Positions 56,485 to 64,000 of a DNA stretch of 64,000 nucleotides are shown here, one piece after another (the stretch's first letter is position 1; every line of letters begins with the position of its first letter). The stretch lies in contig CATKAZ010000114.1 in the NCBI GenBank assembly GCA_949745795.1, forward strand, positions 31,694-95,693. Reading direction: 5' to 3'. Below the pieces are notes generated by a model. It ran no database searches, had not been told where the DNA came from, and saw nothing but the letters and a program-made list of their open reading frames with translations. A program made the position numbers and the translations under genes. This DNA is from an uncultured Oscillospiraceae bacterium (GTDB lineage: Bacteria; Bacillota; Clostridia; Oscillospirales; Ruminococcaceae).

Positions 56485-56950
56485 TTATCTTCTGCAATTT
56501 TTTCCACAGTTCTTATCAAATGCCGGATTGCATGCATAAAAATTCTTTGAATTTAAATTATCTTGTGTTATACGCAAGCCTTCTCCAAATCTCTGGAAAT
56601 GAACTATTTCTCTTTCACGTAAAAACTTAATTGGATCACGAACATCAGGATCATCTGCAAGTCGAAGTATATTATCATAGGTGGAACGTGCCTTTTGCTC
56701 TGCTGCCATATCTTCTACAAGATCAGTTATAGGATCTCCCTTAGACTGAAAATATGCTGCTGTAAAAGGTGTTCCGGAAGCAGCAATAGGATAAATTCCT
56801 GTAGCATGATCAACAAAATAAGTGTCAAATCCACTGGCTTTTATTTCATCAGGTGTTAGATTTCTTGTCAATTGATACAATATCGCTGAAACTATTTCCA
56901 TGTGCGCAAGCTCTTCTGTACCTACAGAAGCCTCAGAAATGTTCCGTTTA
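56485..56950 (-). pseudogene. 5'-truncated manganese catalase / CotJC-like gene
   Basis: In-frame reading upstream of the ORF-track start continues as ...TAKRNISEASVGTEELAHMEIVSAILYQLTRNLTPDEIK..., then abuts the upstream ABC transporter gene with the N-terminal helix missing. Confidence 0.7.
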
Positions 56951-56957
56951 GCAGTAT

Positions 56958-58850
56958 TTATTCCAATTCGAAAGCACCGGTGTAAAGCTGATAATACTGC
57001 CCCTTTTGTGCAATCAGATCGTTATGATCTCCACGTTCGATTATACAGCCATGATCAAGTACAATAATTACATCTGAATTCTTAACTGTTGACAAACGAT
57101 GGGCTATAACAAATACCGTTCTTCCTTCCATAAGCGCATCCATACCACGCTGAACAATAGCTTCTGTTCTGGTATCAATTGAAGAAGTCGCCTCATCGAG
57201 AATCATAACCGGCGGATCTGCAACGGCTGCACGGGCAATAGAAAGCAGTTGTCTTTGTCCCTGGGATAAATTAGCTCCATTTCCGGAAAGGTAAGTCTGA
57301 TAGCCGTCCGGCAGACGAGTAATAAAATCATCTGCACCTGCCAACCTTGCAGCAGCTATGCACTCTTCATCAGTTGCATCCAATTTACCGTAACGTATAT
57401 TTTCAATAACAGTACCTGTAAACAAATTGGTATCCTGTAATACTATGCCTAACGAACGGCGTAAATCACTCTTTTTAATTTTATTTATGTTAATACCGTC
57501 ATAACGGATCTTTCCGTCTGCAATATCATAAAAACGATTCAGCAGATTGGTAATAGTTGTTTTTCCGGCGCCTGTTGCCCCTACAAAAGCAACCTTTTGC
57601 CCGGGCTTTGCATATATACTGACATTTTGCAGTACGTTCTTTCCCTCAACATACGCAAAGTCAACATCAAATAAACGCACATCGCCTCTCAGCTTAGTAT
57701 AGGTAACGGTTCCCTCTGCCTGATGCGGATGCTTCCATGCCCACATTCCGGTTCTTTCTTCACATTCGGTCAGAACTCCGTCAACCTCCTTAGCATTCAC
57801 TAATGTAACATAACCTTCATCCTGTTCCGGCAGTTGATCCATAAGATTAAAAATACGTTCTGTACCTGCCATACCCATAACTACAGAATTAATCTGATTT
57901 GAAACCTGATTAATACTTCCAACAAAATGCTTTGTCATATTTAAAAACGGCACAATTATACTGAGTCTGATTGCCATACCTGAAATACTGACATTCGGCA
58001 CATCAAAAATCAACAATATTCCGCCTACTATGGCAATAATTACATACAAAACGTTACCAATATTGTTTAATATCGGCATTAAAATATTTGCATATTTATT
58101 AGCACGTTCTGCTTCAGAAAAAAGTTTTTCATTCAATCTGTCAAAATCAGCTTCGCTTTCCTTTTCATGACAAAACACCTTAACAACTTTTTGACCGTTC
58201 ATAATTTCTTCTACAAATCCTTCAACCTTGCCAAGTTCAGTTTGCTGACGAAAAAAGAATTTTGCAGAACCTCCGCCGATTTTTTTCGTGATAAAGTACA
58301 TTAGTACTACGCCTACCAACACCACTATAGTAAGCCATAAGCAAAAATAAAGCATAATACTTAAAATTGTCAAAGCTGAAATTGCAGAAATAAGCAGCTG
58401 CGGAAAACTTTGAGAAATCATCTGTCGAAGTGTATCAATATCATTTGTATAATGGCTCATAATATCGCCATGATTGTTTGCATCAAAATACTTGATTGGC
58501 AGACGCTGCATACCGTTAAACATTTTCTCACGCAGCTTTTTCAACGTTCCCTGGGTTATTATCGCCATCAGCTGATTATAAATCAATCCTGCAAGCAATG
58601 ATAAAATATAAAATGCCACCAAAATACTTACAAAGAAAAATATTTTAGAGCTAACTGCATTCCAATCACCATTTTGCCAGCTTTCTTCCACTACCGCAAT
58701 AATATTTTGCATAAAAATGGCAGGAGCAGAGCTGACTATAGCACTAAATACTATACAGACAATGGTAAATGGCATCATGACAGGATAAAATTCTCTTATA
58801 GTTTTCAACAGACGTCCGATAATTCCCTTTTTAGTACTTTTATTATTCAT
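56958..58850 (-). CDS. ABC exporter, fused permease/ATPase, second subunit of a heterodimeric pair
   Basis: Six-TM domain plus GATGAGKTT Walker A, LSQGQRQLLSIARA signature, MILDEATSSID; overlaps partner. Confidence 0.93.
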   Translation of the reverse strand: MNNKSTKKGIIGRLLKTIREFYPVMMPFTIVCIVFSAIVSSAPAIFMQNIIAVVEESWQNGDWNAVSSKIFFFVSILVAFYILSLLAGLIYNQLMAIITQGTLKKLREKMFNGMQRLPIKYFDANNHGDIMSHYTNDIDTLRQMISQSFPQLLISAISALTILSIMLYFCLWLTIVVLVGVVLMYFITKKIGGGSAKFFFRQQTELGKVEGFVEEIMNGQKVVKVFCHEKESEADFDRLNEKLFSEAERANKYANILMPILNNIGNVLYVIIAIVGGILLIFDVPNVSISGMAIRLSIIVPFLNMTKHFVGSINQVSNQINSVVMGMAGTERIFNLMDQLPEQDEGYVTLVNAKEVDGVLTECEERTGMWAWKHPHQAEGTVTYTKLRGDVRLFDVDFAYVEGKNVLQNVSIYAKPGQKVAFVGATGAGKTTITNLLNRFYDIADGKIRYDGININKIKKSDLRRSLGIVLQDTNLFTGTVIENIRYGKLDATDEECIAAARLAGADDFITRLPDGYQTYLSGNGANLSQGQRQLLSIARAAVADPPVMILDEATSSIDTRTEAIVQRGMDALMEGRTVFVIAHRLSTVKNSDVIIVLDHGCIIERGDHNDLIAQKGQYYQLYTGAFELE

Positions 58851-60585
58851 CACGTTCACCTGCCTTATTTTGAGAAGTATAAATTTCACGATAAATATCA
58901 TTATTCGCCAAAAGCTCTTCATGAGTTCCTATCCCATTGATCCTTCCGCTATCCATAACAATAATTTTATCTGCATCTTCCACAGAAGCGGTACGCTGGG
59001 CAATAATAATTTTAGTTGTTTCCGGAATATATTCCCGCAGCGCTTTACGAATACTTGCATCTGTCCTTGTGTCTACTGCACTTGTAGAATCATCAAAAAT
59101 CAAAACCTTCGGTTTTTTCAATAATGCTCTGGCAATACAAAGTCTTTGTTTCTGTCCGCCGGAAACGTTCGCACCGCCCTGTTCGATATATGTATCATAA
59201 CCGTCGGGAAACTGTGAGATAAACTCATCTGCACATGCCAGTTTACATGCCTGTATCAATTCTTCGTCATCTGCATTTTTATTTCCCCAACGCAGGTTTT
59301 CTTTAATAGTACCGGAAAACAAAATGTTCTTTTGTAAAACTACTGCAACCTGATTTCTCAGAGTTTCCAAGTCGTATTTCCTTACATCTATTCCACCAAC
59401 CTTAACAATGCCCTCTGTAGCATCATAAAGTCTTGAAATTAATTGTATCAGTGATGATTTAGACGATCCGGTACCTCCTATAATACCAACTGTTTCTCCT
59501 GATTTAATATTCAGATTTATATCGGCAAGCGCTCTGCGTTCTGCTTTCAATGAATATTTAAAGCTTACATTTTCAAAAGAAATTGAACCGTCTGCAACCT
59601 CATACAAAGGATCTTTAGGATTAATCAACGTACATTTTTCGGAAAGTACTTCCACAATTCTCTTTCCTGATTCTGCTGCCATTGTAATCATAACAAAAAT
59701 CATTGAAAGCATCATCAGACTGCTAAGCATCATAAAACCGTAAGTAAGAAGTGCAGACATCTGACCCACATCAAGATTTAAGCCTTGAGAAGTAATGATT
59801 GTATAAGATCCAAATGACAATATAAATACCATATCCACATACAAACAAAATTGCATCAAAGGATTATCGAGCGCTAAAATGCGTTCTGCTTTTGTAAAAT
59901 CAGCACAGACATCTTCAGCCGCAGCATCAAATTTCTTCTGTTCATAATTTTCACGAACAAAAGATTTGACAACACGCATTCCTTTAATATTTTCCTGTAC
60001 GGAGCTATTCAAATTATCATATTTTTTAAACACCTTACGAAAAAGCGGCATCGTTTTATAAATGATCAATCCCAATCCTGCGGTCAGAAAGGGTATGACA
60101 AACAGAAAAATCCATGCCATTTTTCCACCCATTACAAACGCCATTATCAGTGAAAAAATAATCATTAACGGAGCACGAATTGCACTCCTTATTATCATCA
60201 TGTAGGCTGTCTGAACATTGGTTACATCTGTTGTCAGACGAGTCACAAGTGAAGAAGTTAAGAATTTATCAATGTTTTCAAAAGAGTAATTTTGAATACT
60301 GTAAAACATGTCCTTACGGAGATTTTTTGCCAATCCACTGGATGCAGTAGCACATGTAGAACCTGCTGCTGCACCAAATATCAGCGATAACACAGCCATC
60401 ACAATCAGTATAAGTCCATATCTGATAATGACACTTAGCTCGCATCCGGACTTGATTTCATTTACAAGTCTTGCAATGAGATATGGAATAATACACTCCA
60501 TTACAACCTCTAACGATACAAGTATCGGAGTTGCAATTGCAGGCTTTTTATATTCCCGTATGCTTTTTGAAATTTCCTTTATCAT
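58843..60585 (-). CDS. ABC exporter, fused permease/ATPase, first subunit
   Basis: GGTGSSKSSL Walker A, VSGGQKQRLCIARALL signature, VLIFDDSTSAVD (degenerate site typical of heterodimeric exporters). Confidence 0.93.
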   Translation of the reverse strand: MIKEISKSIREYKKPAIATPILVSLEVVMECIIPYLIARLVNEIKSGCELSVIIRYGLILIVMAVLSLIFGAAAGSTCATASSGLAKNLRKDMFYSIQNYSFENIDKFLTSSLVTRLTTDVTNVQTAYMMIIRSAIRAPLMIIFSLIMAFVMGGKMAWIFLFVIPFLTAGLGLIIYKTMPLFRKVFKKYDNLNSSVQENIKGMRVVKSFVRENYEQKKFDAAAEDVCADFTKAERILALDNPLMQFCLYVDMVFILSFGSYTIITSQGLNLDVGQMSALLTYGFMMLSSLMMLSMIFVMITMAAESGKRIVEVLSEKCTLINPKDPLYEVADGSISFENVSFKYSLKAERRALADINLNIKSGETVGIIGGTGSSKSSLIQLISRLYDATEGIVKVGGIDVRKYDLETLRNQVAVVLQKNILFSGTIKENLRWGNKNADDEELIQACKLACADEFISQFPDGYDTYIEQGGANVSGGQKQRLCIARALLKKPKVLIFDDSTSAVDTRTDASIRKALREYIPETTKIIIAQRTASVEDADKIIVMDSGRINGIGTHEELLANNDIYREIYTSQNKAGERDE

Positions 60586-60694: not shown

Positions 60695-60825
60695 GACTCT
60701 TTTATAATTTTCTTATTTTTATACCAAGGTTTAGTTCAGTTATTAAACATTATTCTCTAAACGCACAACACCCCTTCCAGGTAGATTACTTGAAAGGGGG
60801 TATTTTTATAACTACAATAAACTCA

Positions 60826-61083
60826 TCATTTTTTCGTTGCTTTTTCGATAATCGAAACCAGTTCTCTTACGGTACGGGCAGAATGTATAAGATTCAAATA
60901 ATCATCTAGATTTATACCTAAATCTTCCTCTATGCCCAAAGTCAATTTTAATAAATTTATTGAATCGATACCTAAAGTCCTATCCAATTTGGTATCATAT
61001 GTAACAATATTATCTATATTTTCTTCATCAAAAATTTGCTTTACATTTTTTGCTACTATATCATATACACTATTACTCATCAT
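60826..61083 (-). CDS. Acyl/peptidyl carrier protein
   Basis: ~85 aa with phosphopantetheine site LGIDSINLLKLTLGIEEDLGI. Confidence 0.9.
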   Translation of the reverse strand: MMSNSVYDIVAKNVKQIFDEENIDNIVTYDTKLDRTLGIDSINLLKLTLGIEEDLGINLDDYLNLIHSARTVRELVSIIEKATKK

Positions 61084-62245
61084 TTTGCTCCCTTTTATAA
61101 GCATTTTTAATTTCAGCAGGCCAATCATTAATATCTATGCCAAATTGACTAATAAAAGCTATAACCCATCTTTCTAATCCAAATCCAATACAACCTGTAA
61201 CTGTATTTTCTGTATCTGCAATTTTGATATTAAAAGGTGACGTAAAAGCTGTTCCATGTAAATTAAATGAAGCCACAGAAATTTCATGTTCATTAGAACA
61301 ATTCAACCTAACTTCATATTTAAGTTCTTCTGACTTCTGAATCTTTTTAAATTTTTGCATTTTAGGTATTATAAACGGATCGGCTGCAACACATACTTTC
61401 GAACACATTTCCCATTGCTTCAACAAATTGACCACTTCATCTAAAATTCTTTTTCTTATGTTAGAAACAAAGTCAGCAGAACCGATCATAACAATTTCTC
61501 TTACATGATAACCCATTAATCTGCCAAACTCCGAATAATTAAATCTTCCTTCATTACGAAATACATTTTGATTAAAAGTAACTACTGAATTTGTATCTAA
61601 AACCATATTTTCATATTCTAAATATGTATGAAAACAAGCTGACGGTGATAACGCATGTGTAGGATTCTTTAACACTGATGACCAATTATAAGAGTCAATA
61701 TTTTTATCTAATTTTTCAAGCTTATTCATATCTTCAAACGTACTACAGCAAAATATCGCATATTGTGGAGAATGCTTTAAATATCCCGTTTTTTTATACG
61801 CTGCTATCGGAAGCAACGTTGGATAAACCTTACAATATGCATTATGTTTCATCGCAATACTCTCAAATCTTCTGTCAAAAAATCTATATAAAAACTCAGC
61901 AACCCCGCTAAATACAACATTACCGCAGCCAAAGTCATGAATACACTGAGTATATTTATTAAAGACGTCATGATAAATCCGAGTACTATCATCATAATTA
62001 TAAAATATTTTATCTTCTTCTGAAAATATAAACCTTTCAGCATATAATTTCAAATCATGCTCAATTTGATTTTCATCTGCATTATCTGAAATTTCTACAA
62101 TTAACTTATTATCTTTTATACTAAAATCTAATATTGCTTCAGAAACAAAACCTACATTTTTAATAAACTCTTTTTTATCTATATTTTTTTTCAATTCAAG
62201 CTTTATTATTTTCAAAGACATTCTCCTTTTTATACCTTCATCCAT
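61073..62245 (-). CDS. Class II aaRS-like amino acid--[acyl-carrier-protein] ligase (atypical SerRS homolog)
   Basis: SPSACFHTYLEYE, FGRLMGYHVREIVMIGSADFV, VCVAADPFI, GCIGFGLERWVIAFISQFGID (motif-3-like); no tRNA-binding coiled coil recognisable; overlaps carrier protein ORF. Start may be an internal Met/TTG. Confidence 0.85.
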   Translation of the reverse strand: MDEGIKRRMSLKIIKLELKKNIDKKEFIKNVGFVSEAILDFSIKDNKLIVEISDNADENQIEHDLKLYAERFIFSEEDKIFYNYDDSTRIYHDVFNKYTQCIHDFGCGNVVFSGVAEFLYRFFDRRFESIAMKHNAYCKVYPTLLPIAAYKKTGYLKHSPQYAIFCCSTFEDMNKLEKLDKNIDSYNWSSVLKNPTHALSPSACFHTYLEYENMVLDTNSVVTFNQNVFRNEGRFNYSEFGRLMGYHVREIVMIGSADFVSNIRKRILDEVVNLLKQWEMCSKVCVAADPFIIPKMQKFKKIQKSEELKYEVRLNCSNEHEISVASFNLHGTAFTSPFNIKIADTENTVTGCIGFGLERWVIAFISQFGIDINDWPAEIKNAYKREQNDE

Positions 62246-62271
62246 TACAATTTACATTAAAAACTGCTTAG

Positions 62272-63336
62272 CTATTCAAAACTCAAGTATTTCACCAATG
62301 CCGTATGCAGCTCATCTTCGGCAGCAATAACATTTTCAATAAACGGAATATGCTTTTTCCCCATATTAACTGCACCTTGTAAGTAATCCTTATATAAAAT
62401 CTTGTAAAGTAAATCCCACTGCTTTATCGATTCTTTTAATGATTTTATTAATTGTAATGCACTGTCATTATTTTTATCAACGATTTGCTCTAAATAATGT
62501 CTTTGTAAATTTCTTCGACCTTTTATATTCCATAACTTCCAATTGAAATATGTAATCATATCTCTGTCCTCTGATGGCGCTAGTTCATCAAAGTGCAATT
62601 TTTCCATTTCAAATATTTCAATCAATTTCAGCAAAGCATTTCGACCGAAATATTCAGTAAAGTCACCATAACTAACTTCATCCTTATAATAATTTTCCTT
62701 TGAGTTGATCAGCGCTTCTTGCGGATGCTTAGTATAAAAATCAATAACATCTTTATTAAACTTAAATGTTAGTACATCACAATAATCTTTAGTTGCCTCA
62801 TAAAAAAATTTCTTTGAAATAATACCGATACCTCGATTTTTTTCATAAGCCTCATATTGCTTATATGATATTACACTGGGATTATCAACATAAAAGAAAT
62901 TTTCCTCATCTTCTCCAACGATAATAAAAACATGTCCTGTTCGTCTTACATTTAATTTATAATTAACATCATAGAAAGCAGAAAAAGGAAGCCTTTCAAT
63001 AATCGTCGCAATAGCCGGAATGTCCCCGTTTTTCAAAATACCCGATACTATTTCTATTGTATTTTGATTTGTTTGTGAATTATAATTAATAGAAAAAATT
63101 TTCCTATCAAATATGTTTTCGATTGTTTCAAAAGAAATTAACTCATTATCTGAGTTTACAGTCAATTTTACTGTAGTTTCGTTTAAAAATGCTTTATAAT
63201 CATCCCGCCGCAATCCATATTTACTCTTTAAAACCAGATATGCAGCTTGCACTAAACAATCTCCAAGAGAATCTACAATATCATCCATTACTTCATCTGA
63301 ATTTAAATAATAATATTTTGTTAAAAAGTTCTCCAT
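62272..63336 (-). CDS. BtrH-like / papain-fold (C39-like) acyltransferase candidate
   Basis: Cys in SLGDCLVQAAY, His in RTGHVFIIVGEDEENFFYVDNPS; layout resembles BtrH_N-type proteins. Confidence 0.6.
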   Translation of the reverse strand: MENFLTKYYYLNSDEVMDDIVDSLGDCLVQAAYLVLKSKYGLRRDDYKAFLNETTVKLTVNSDNELISFETIENIFDRKIFSINYNSQTNQNTIEIVSGILKNGDIPAIATIIERLPFSAFYDVNYKLNVRRTGHVFIIVGEDEENFFYVDNPSVISYKQYEAYEKNRGIGIISKKFFYEATKDYCDVLTFKFNKDVIDFYTKHPQEALINSKENYYKDEVSYGDFTEYFGRNALLKLIEIFEMEKLHFDELAPSEDRDMITYFNWKLWNIKGRRNLQRHYLEQIVDKNNDSALQLIKSLKESIKQWDLLYKILYKDYLQGAVNMGKKHIPFIENVIAAEDELHTALVKYLSFE

Positions 63337-63447: not shown

Positions 63448-63476
63448 ATTATACAAAATTATTATATAAAAATCAA
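63448..63476 (-). promoter_or_regulatory. Promoter of the acyltransferase-ligase-carrier cassette
   Basis: Minus strand TTGATT-N17-TATAAT, ~110 nt upstream of the first gene. Confidence 0.65.
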
Positions 63477-63679
63477 TACATTTTCCATAAATACCCAAAA
63501 AGAGTTAAAACATTTTTTGCCGTATAATCATATGCAATATACACTATTCCCACTAACTTTTTCATAAAAAATGTTTATATGACAAATTATACCACAAACT
63601 TCGTTAAAAGTAAATACATAAGATAGCTAAAAAATGAAATAGGTATTTCTTCTATTAATATATATCATTAACAATAAAA

Positions 63680-63709
63680 CCCACAAAAGTAATCTAATAC
63701 TTCTGTGGG
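63680..63709. repeat. Terminator-like hairpin
   Basis: CCCACAAAAGTA ATCTAA TACTTCTGTGGG. Confidence 0.6.
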
Positions 63710-64000
63710 ATATTATAGTAAGCTTTATTATAATATACAGCTTTAACATATTCTTTATTTAAGCAAAAATAAATGTCCGTAAATTTTACACTTACGAACA
63801 TTTCATATGGCTCCGTGAGAATCAGTCAAAATTAAACGAAAAAGAACATTCCAATGGAATGTCTGTTCAATTGGAAAATATATAAATTCGCCATTGGCGA
63901 ATTCTCAAAGACCTGCAAATAAAAGTCAACCCCTAAATAAAAAAAATAGAAAAAAGTTTTTCAAAGCCAAAAAGTATACGACAAAAAGACTGCCGAAGCA

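Follow-up and report, generated by a model that had tools for sequence, protein, structure and literature searches.

Amino acid:[carrier protein] ligases of the Bll0957 type from Bradyrhizobium (PDB entries 3mey and 4h2s), reportedly described by Mocibob in 2010 and 2013, are built on the core of a class II aminoacyl-tRNA synthetase (aaRS), carry a zinc-binding Cys/Glu/Cys set and have a carrier protein gene in their operon. Structures of such ligases have been solved and their in vitro activity has been proven since 2010. A 2022 review calls their biological role unknown (PMC9437257). Here we describe a three-gene cassette on contig CATKAZ010000114.1 of an uncultured Oscillospiraceae bacterium, located at positions 60826-63336 of the 64,000-nucleotide stretch that was analysed (the window). 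It encodes, on the minus strand, a papain-like protein resembling BtrH (ORF1, for open reading frame 1), an aaRS-like ligase and a carrier protein. We consider it, with a probability of about two in three, to be a horizontally acquired aminoacyl-transfer module which loads an amino acid and transfers it to an amine acceptor.

The window ligase shares the core, the Cys/Glu/Cys set and the operonic carrier gene with the Bll0957 type, but belongs to a separate, strongly supported Firmicutes clade and has an extra N-terminal domain of about 100 residues. The proteobacterial ligase operons also include an acyl-CoA-dehydrogenase-like gene and a DUF1839 gene, both of which are absent from the window.

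A second point of comparison is the butirosin pathway, in which BtrH serves as acyl carrier protein:aminoglycoside acyltransferase (PMC10318531). Like BtrI and BtrH (PF14399), the cassette includes a carrier protein together with a papain-like acyltransferase candidate, and there is a profile match between the ORF1 family and BtrH, although ORF1 itself falls below every Pfam threshold and no aminoglycoside genes were seen nearby. The enzyme loading the butirosin carrier differs from the aaRS-like loader of the window. The Dlt D-alanylation system (DltA-DltC-DltB-DltD) also activates an amino acid, loads it on a carrier and gives it to an acyltransferase, but DltA is an adenylation enzyme of the non-ribosomal peptide synthetase (NRPS) type and DltB a membrane MBOAT protein, in contrast to the aaRS-type ligase and papain-like protein found here. 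The same logic underlies the StRS-like systems of Iyer and colleagues, proposed in a note in proof in 2010 to ligate an amino acid to the amine of a surface sugar (PMC2922099): in this prediction, as proposed for the window, SerRS-like loading of an acyl carrier protein (ACP) would be followed by formation of a sugar-amine amide by another protein. The StRS-ACP prediction gives this role to a protein of the Atu2574 type; the third protein is DUF1839 in the proteobacterial plasmid operons examined here and BtrH-like in the window. DUF1839 proteins are papain-like and their genomic context has been left unexplained (PMC10318531). The pairing of an aaRS-type ligase, a carrier and a BtrH-type protein as a conserved unit is not described in the literature searched, which excludes most subscription journals.

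The ligase and its carrier protein

The central gene (61073-62245, minus strand) is an ORF of 390 codons. The original prediction, made from the DNA letters alone, had regarded its product as an amino acid:[carrier protein] ligase with segments resembling motifs 2 and 3, and this is borne out by profile, structural and residue comparisons. The best NCBIfam match is amino acid--[acyl-carrier-protein] ligase NF005479 (E 2.4e-37), followed by the archaeal-type seryl-tRNA synthetase (SerRS) PRK00960 (E 5.9e-34); the score is under the curated NF005479 cut-off (357 bits), which indicates a different equivalog. Bradyrhizobium Bll0957 (3mey) was retrieved by phmmer from the PDB with an E value of 4.5e-24, and a profile of 22 ligase relatives placed 3mey (5.9e-43) ahead of the Methanopyrus kandleri SerRS 3w3s (1.7e-36). 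The AlphaFold2 model is of high predicted quality (mean predicted local distance difference test, pLDDT, 90.8; predicted TM-score 0.89), and with Foldseek it aligns to the Gly:carrier protein ligase 4h2s with a target TM-score of 0.84, at 2.8 Å and about 25% identity, and to 3w3s with an E value of 1.3e-24 over 415 columns. Residues C204, E250 and C352, together with R230, E232 and R249 of motif 2 and R359 of motif 3, are invariant in the compared clades (A1 and A4); we take the first three to be the zinc ligands, by analogy with SerRS and Bll0957. These data support assignment of the protein to the amino acid:[carrier protein] ligase family, with an identity far above chance.

Could the protein instead be a true SerRS paralog whose gene lies next to a carrier gene for another reason? 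Its second-best likeness is indeed to atypical archaeal SerRS (PRK00960 and 3w3s), and its N-terminus forms a small alpha/beta domain of about 100 residues which has no counterpart in the Bradyrhizobium enzyme. The tRNA-binding domain of atypical SerRS is about 165 residues long, however, and the domain of the window ligase is too small to correspond to it. The earlier claim that the ligase has no tRNA-binding domain must therefore be narrowed: the full domain is absent, since the SerRS matches begin only at chain residues 151-196, past most of the N-terminal part, but an N-terminal domain of some kind is present. A canonical SerRS is encoded elsewhere in the genome, on contig C56, so that the ligase should be dispensable for translation. 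The better PDB profile match to the Gly:carrier protein ligase, the late start of the SerRS matches and the canonical SerRS all argue against a tRNA synthetase, and we rejected this candidate. A carrier gene moreover adjoins the ligase gene in eight of the ten loci of its own clade (clade A, below) and lies near it in all 70 loci of a second, Paenibacillus-type clade, and a ligase-carrier fusion exists. A SerRS paralog is thus very improbable. The fusion, in genome G666 (L008:1141-2631, the same as L118:8789-10279), has the carrier domain at the C-terminus of the ligase and lies near genes resembling purine biosynthesis genes.

The carrier gene (60826-61083, minus strand) encodes 85 residues and overlaps the ligase ORF, as originally noted, by 11 nt. 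Its product scores 26.4 bits against the Pfam family PP-binding (PF00550; cut-off 20.8), and Ser41, the predicted phosphopantetheine attachment site within a GIDS motif, aligns with the Ser of the carriers encoded beside clade A ligases. With the family score above cut-off and the attachment Ser retained, the protein appears to be a phosphopantetheine carrier, as had been anticipated. A genome search for phosphopantetheinyl transferases gave a single one, on contig C129.

ORF1 and its relationship to BtrH

ORF1 (62272-63336, minus strand; 354 residues) is a divergent, probably papain-like member of the BtrH family and a putative aminoacyl-S-carrier acyltransferase. When compared with Pfam and NCBIfam, it matched no family at E<=1 and hence missed the curated cut-off of PF14399; we therefore call it BtrH-like and not a member of PF14399. 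Searches of the PDB with phmmer, of plasmids with tblastn and of viral contigs gave no matches. Genome searches retrieved two homologs, a paralog with 50% identity on contig C128 of the same genome and a protein with 24% identity in genome G549, whose gene adjoins that of a weak BtrH_N match and lies near an ATP-binding cassette (ABC) transporter gene and an AMP-binding-like gene. All three proteins have the motifs SLG(D/N)C, (G/H)H(V/I)F and (V/I/L)DN, which include Cys27, His135 and Asp151 of ORF1. The Cys/His/Asp(Asn) pattern that had been read from the single sequence is thus retained, as C27, H135 and D151-N152, in both homologs, and Cys27 sits at the start of a predicted helix.

A profile of the three ORF1-family members matched an alignment of BtrH proteins with a probability of 96.2% (E 2.5e-9), in a colinear manner over residues 90-351. 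This alignment was restricted to Pfam-supported members, a few of them below cut-off, doubtful BtrH-like proteins having been removed as circular. When each ORF1-family member was compared singly with BtrH, it ranked first against 124 unrelated controls of similar length (scores of 35-40 and at most 21, respectively). Given this profile-profile match and the far lower controls, the proposal that ORF1 is a distant BtrH-family protein stands, as a reading of sequence similarity. The homology extends over the papain-like part and the helical C-terminal half, and ORF1 probably has a papain fold.

Proteins with a papain fold are mostly hydrolases, and ORF1 might accordingly be a thioesterase, an amidase or a peptidase, acting either on the aminoacyl-carrier, to unload or edit it, or on a peptide that it processes. 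Its N-terminal region has diverged too far for a function to be called, and its paralog is encoded next to an Asparaginase_2 protein. Set against this are the full-length colinear likeness to BtrH-type proteins, including the helical C-terminal half, and the presence of BtrH_N proteins in the trio of two related loci (L030 and L032). We regard a hydrolase as improbable.

The gene of the paralog (genome G000, contig C128:18606-19691, or L114:1492-2577) overlaps the Asparaginase_2 gene and belongs to an operon with two glycosyltransferase genes, MacB-like genes and probable sugar ABC transporter genes. This operon hints, weakly, at an acceptor containing sugar. The same contig carries (L116:10335-18892) genes for a Cys-rich precursor of the CLI_3235 type, a CcpM radical SAM maturase, TIGR04066 and ACP-related proteins, a subtilase-like protein and an ABC transporter, as well as a separate carrier and PaaK-like adenylation genes.

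Co-occurrence, proposed mechanism and origin

Scanning for the ligase with the single sequence gave nothing, while a three-sequence alignment, used on one genome per species, gave 80 loci. The ten nearest, with 37-49% identity, are from a Bacillota metagenome-assembled genome, Eubacterium, Ruminococcus bromii and seven Paenibacillus, and group with the window ligase in a single clade (clade A; tree support 100/99). A BtrH-like gene is found within 9 kb of the ligase gene in nine of these ten loci, and in L030 and L032 ligase, carrier and BtrH genes are contiguous without gaps. BtrH_N scores are above the Pfam cut-off in L030, L031, L032 and L039 and below it, at E<0.002, in L034, L035 and L038; L037 is almost identical to L035, and the call in L033 is made by our own profile alone. 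Across the phylum, by contrast, only 13 of 300 genomes have a BtrH_N gene at all. The genes are also found together on plasmids, in the order ligase-BtrH_N-carrier in Priestia koreensis and as two BtrH_N proteins followed by carrier and ligase in Bacillus wiedmannii. The trio therefore co-occurs across other Firmicutes, as had been expected. None of the testable observations named beforehand as speaking against the cassette was made: the full N-terminal tRNA-binding domain is missing from the ligase homologs, the Ser of the carrier is retained, ORF1 falls in no unrelated non-catalytic family and the three genes are found together.

The proposed aminoacyl-transfer module would work as follows. 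The ligase would adenylate one amino acid with ATP and move the aminoacyl group to the 4'-phosphopantetheine thiol of the holo-carrier; we propose this activation and loading step because the protein is strongly homologous to amino acid:[carrier protein] ligases with biochemical proof of their activity. In ORF1, Cys27 would accept the aminoacyl group from its thioester with the carrier, and the group would then be passed to a nucleophile, most likely the amine of a small molecule or a sugar, with formation of an amide. This transfer is suggested by the remote homology, the conserved Cys/His/Asp residues and the gene context. The carrier would be primed by the host phosphopantetheinyl transferase encoded on C129.

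Several observations weigh against this interpretation. We infer each of the catalytic steps from sequence; the N-terminal third of ORF1, including the Cys, lies outside the alignment to the BtrH profile; and the AlphaFold2 model of ORF1, built on an alignment of nine remote relatives, is poor (pLDDT 49). No amino acid:[carrier protein] ligase gene was found near the operon of the ORF1 paralog, so that the family is not bound solely to the ligase. Furthermore, the clusters of the relatives add genes for NTP_transf_5, an ABC-2 exporter and AMP-binding proteins, which are absent from the window, and the cassette may be incomplete.

The last point leads to another explanation, in which the cassette is the remnant or satellite of a larger pathway and provides aminoacyl-S-carrier for enzymes whose genes lie elsewhere, such as those of the carrier, adenylation and ribosomally synthesized and post-translationally modified peptide (RiPP) cluster on C128, ORF1 acting on a pathway intermediate. 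The trio of the relatives is part of larger clusters with AMP-binding and PP-binding genes, ABC-2 exporters and further BtrH-like proteins; C128 carries both the ORF1 paralog and a carrier/PaaK-like cluster; and window position 64000, 664 bp upstream of ORF1, is the last of the contig. In contrast, the cassette is bounded by hairpins at both sides, its ORFs are intact and a search of the genome gave no second amino acid:[carrier protein] ligase. We judge a remnant or satellite unlikely, but the original description of a complete minimal pathway with no NRPS is doubtful, since in the relatives the trio is part of larger clusters, whose exporter, NTP_transf_5 and AMP-binding genes are missing from the window, and since the contig stops a short way above ORF1.

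The GC content of the cassette (29.0%, compared with 36.8%) is below that of all 2.5-kb segments in the first 60 kb. Ten genus mates, including several with incomplete genomes, have neither the ligase nor ORF1, and sampling of 149 genomes of the family and 397 of the order gave no further occurrence of the ligase. At the syntenic place in the genus mate G928, the ABC gene next to the cassette has a conserved counterpart and the similarity ends just upstream of it, with no cassette. The simplest reading is a recent horizontal acquisition. The odd composition and the absence from relatives would also suit an acquired cluster in decay which has lost its function, but the ORFs are intact with every conserved ligase residue, and they are tightly coupled and preceded by ribosome-binding sites; decay has very little probability.

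Wider distribution and gene layout

A second clade of ligases comprises 70 loci (L040-L109), nearly all from Paenibacillus. In all of them a carrier, an SGNH-like protein (a label assigned by eye and not by a Pfam hit) and an FG-GAP protein are encoded near the ligase, and a MBOAT protein is encoded within 5 kb in about 66 of the 70; L053:6239-13524 is an example. This MBOAT protein matches DltB (TIGR04091) with an E value of 5.3e-52, below the curated cut-off. No DltA was found over cut-off in six genomes of this clade, while two control genomes have DltA. These loci look like Dlt-type envelope aminoacylation systems with an aaRS-like loader.

Three proteobacterial operons (L123:4480-7808, L124:4356-7928 and L125:4326-7913) include genes for a carrier, an acyl-CoA-dehydrogenase-like protein and a ligase, followed by DUF1839. 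The latter is annotated in two of the three; in the third, a similar sequence occupies the same place. One Paenibacillus BtrH-like protein gives weak matches to both BtrH_N and DUF1839. Direct alignment of DUF1839 with BtrH is weak (probability 20%), and direct comparison of DUF1839 with ORF1 detected no similarity. DUF1839 may be the missing transferase of the proteobacterial operons.

It is possible, though we advance this only tentatively, that aaRS-type amino acid:[carrier protein] ligases form the front end of a widespread and hitherto unrecognised aminoacyl-transfer system with an exchangeable back end, which would be BtrH-type in Firmicutes, DUF1839 in Proteobacteria and a DltB-like MBOAT with an SGNH-like protein in Paenibacillus, the window harbouring the smallest, acquired three-gene form. 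Ligase and carrier are repeatedly found beside acyltransferases, which gives a testable answer to the question of what these ligases do: the loaded amino acid would be destined for an acceptor. The three-gene form is small enough to be reconstituted in vitro with candidate acceptors.

A very divergent aaRS-like protein is encoded on plasmid p330 of Clostridium felsineum (L120:7434-11182), where its gene is flanked on one side by an aldolase/citrate-lyase-type gene and on the other by genes for triphosphoribosyl-dephospho-CoA synthase/citrate lyase holo-ACP synthase. It may load a carrier of the citrate-lyase type.

In the window, the three genes of the cassette are co-directional ORFs at the positions first given. 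The carrier starts at the ATG at 61083, which is preceded by GGGAG; a longer ORF of 100 residues starting at 61128 is unlikely. The ligase probably starts not at the ATG at 62245 but at a TTG at 62215, giving 380 residues, because AGGAG lies 7 nt upstream of the TTG, the relative in L030 begins near the same alignment column and the AlphaFold2 confidence is below 50 for residues 1-7.

Upstream of the cassette, a terminator-like hairpin with a T-tract lies at 63680-63709 (minus strand; 12-bp stem, TTTTATTGTT tail); five such sites occur in the region compared with 0.9 expected. It would insulate the cassette from genes past the contig end. At the other side, 3' of the carrier gene, a hairpin at 60771-60799 (minus strand; fold z-score -2.83) is a probable terminator with a weak U-tract, although it gave no match in a strict terminator scan. 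With hairpins at both its 5' and 3' sides, the trio gives the impression of a self-contained unit. The promoter originally called good does exist as a site (63448-63476, minus strand; TTGATT-17-TATAAT), but such sites are no commoner in the region than in shuffled sequence (28 compared with 24.3 +/- 5.6). It and a second promoter-like site with an extended -10 element (63586-63614, minus strand; TTTACT-17-TATAAT) are identified by consensus match alone.

Downstream of the cassette is a pair of MsbA-like ABC genes (56958-60585). We rejected these as part of the cassette: the 580-aa ABC gene is intact in G928 (87% identity), where the cassette is absent upstream, and the pair is placed outside the system because the hairpin separates it from the cassette. 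The second ABC gene is cut by the contig end in G928. Farther along, at 56485-56901, an ORF of 138 residues matches only positions 101-197 of the 284 of manganese catalase and, from this partial match, looks like a truncated gene.

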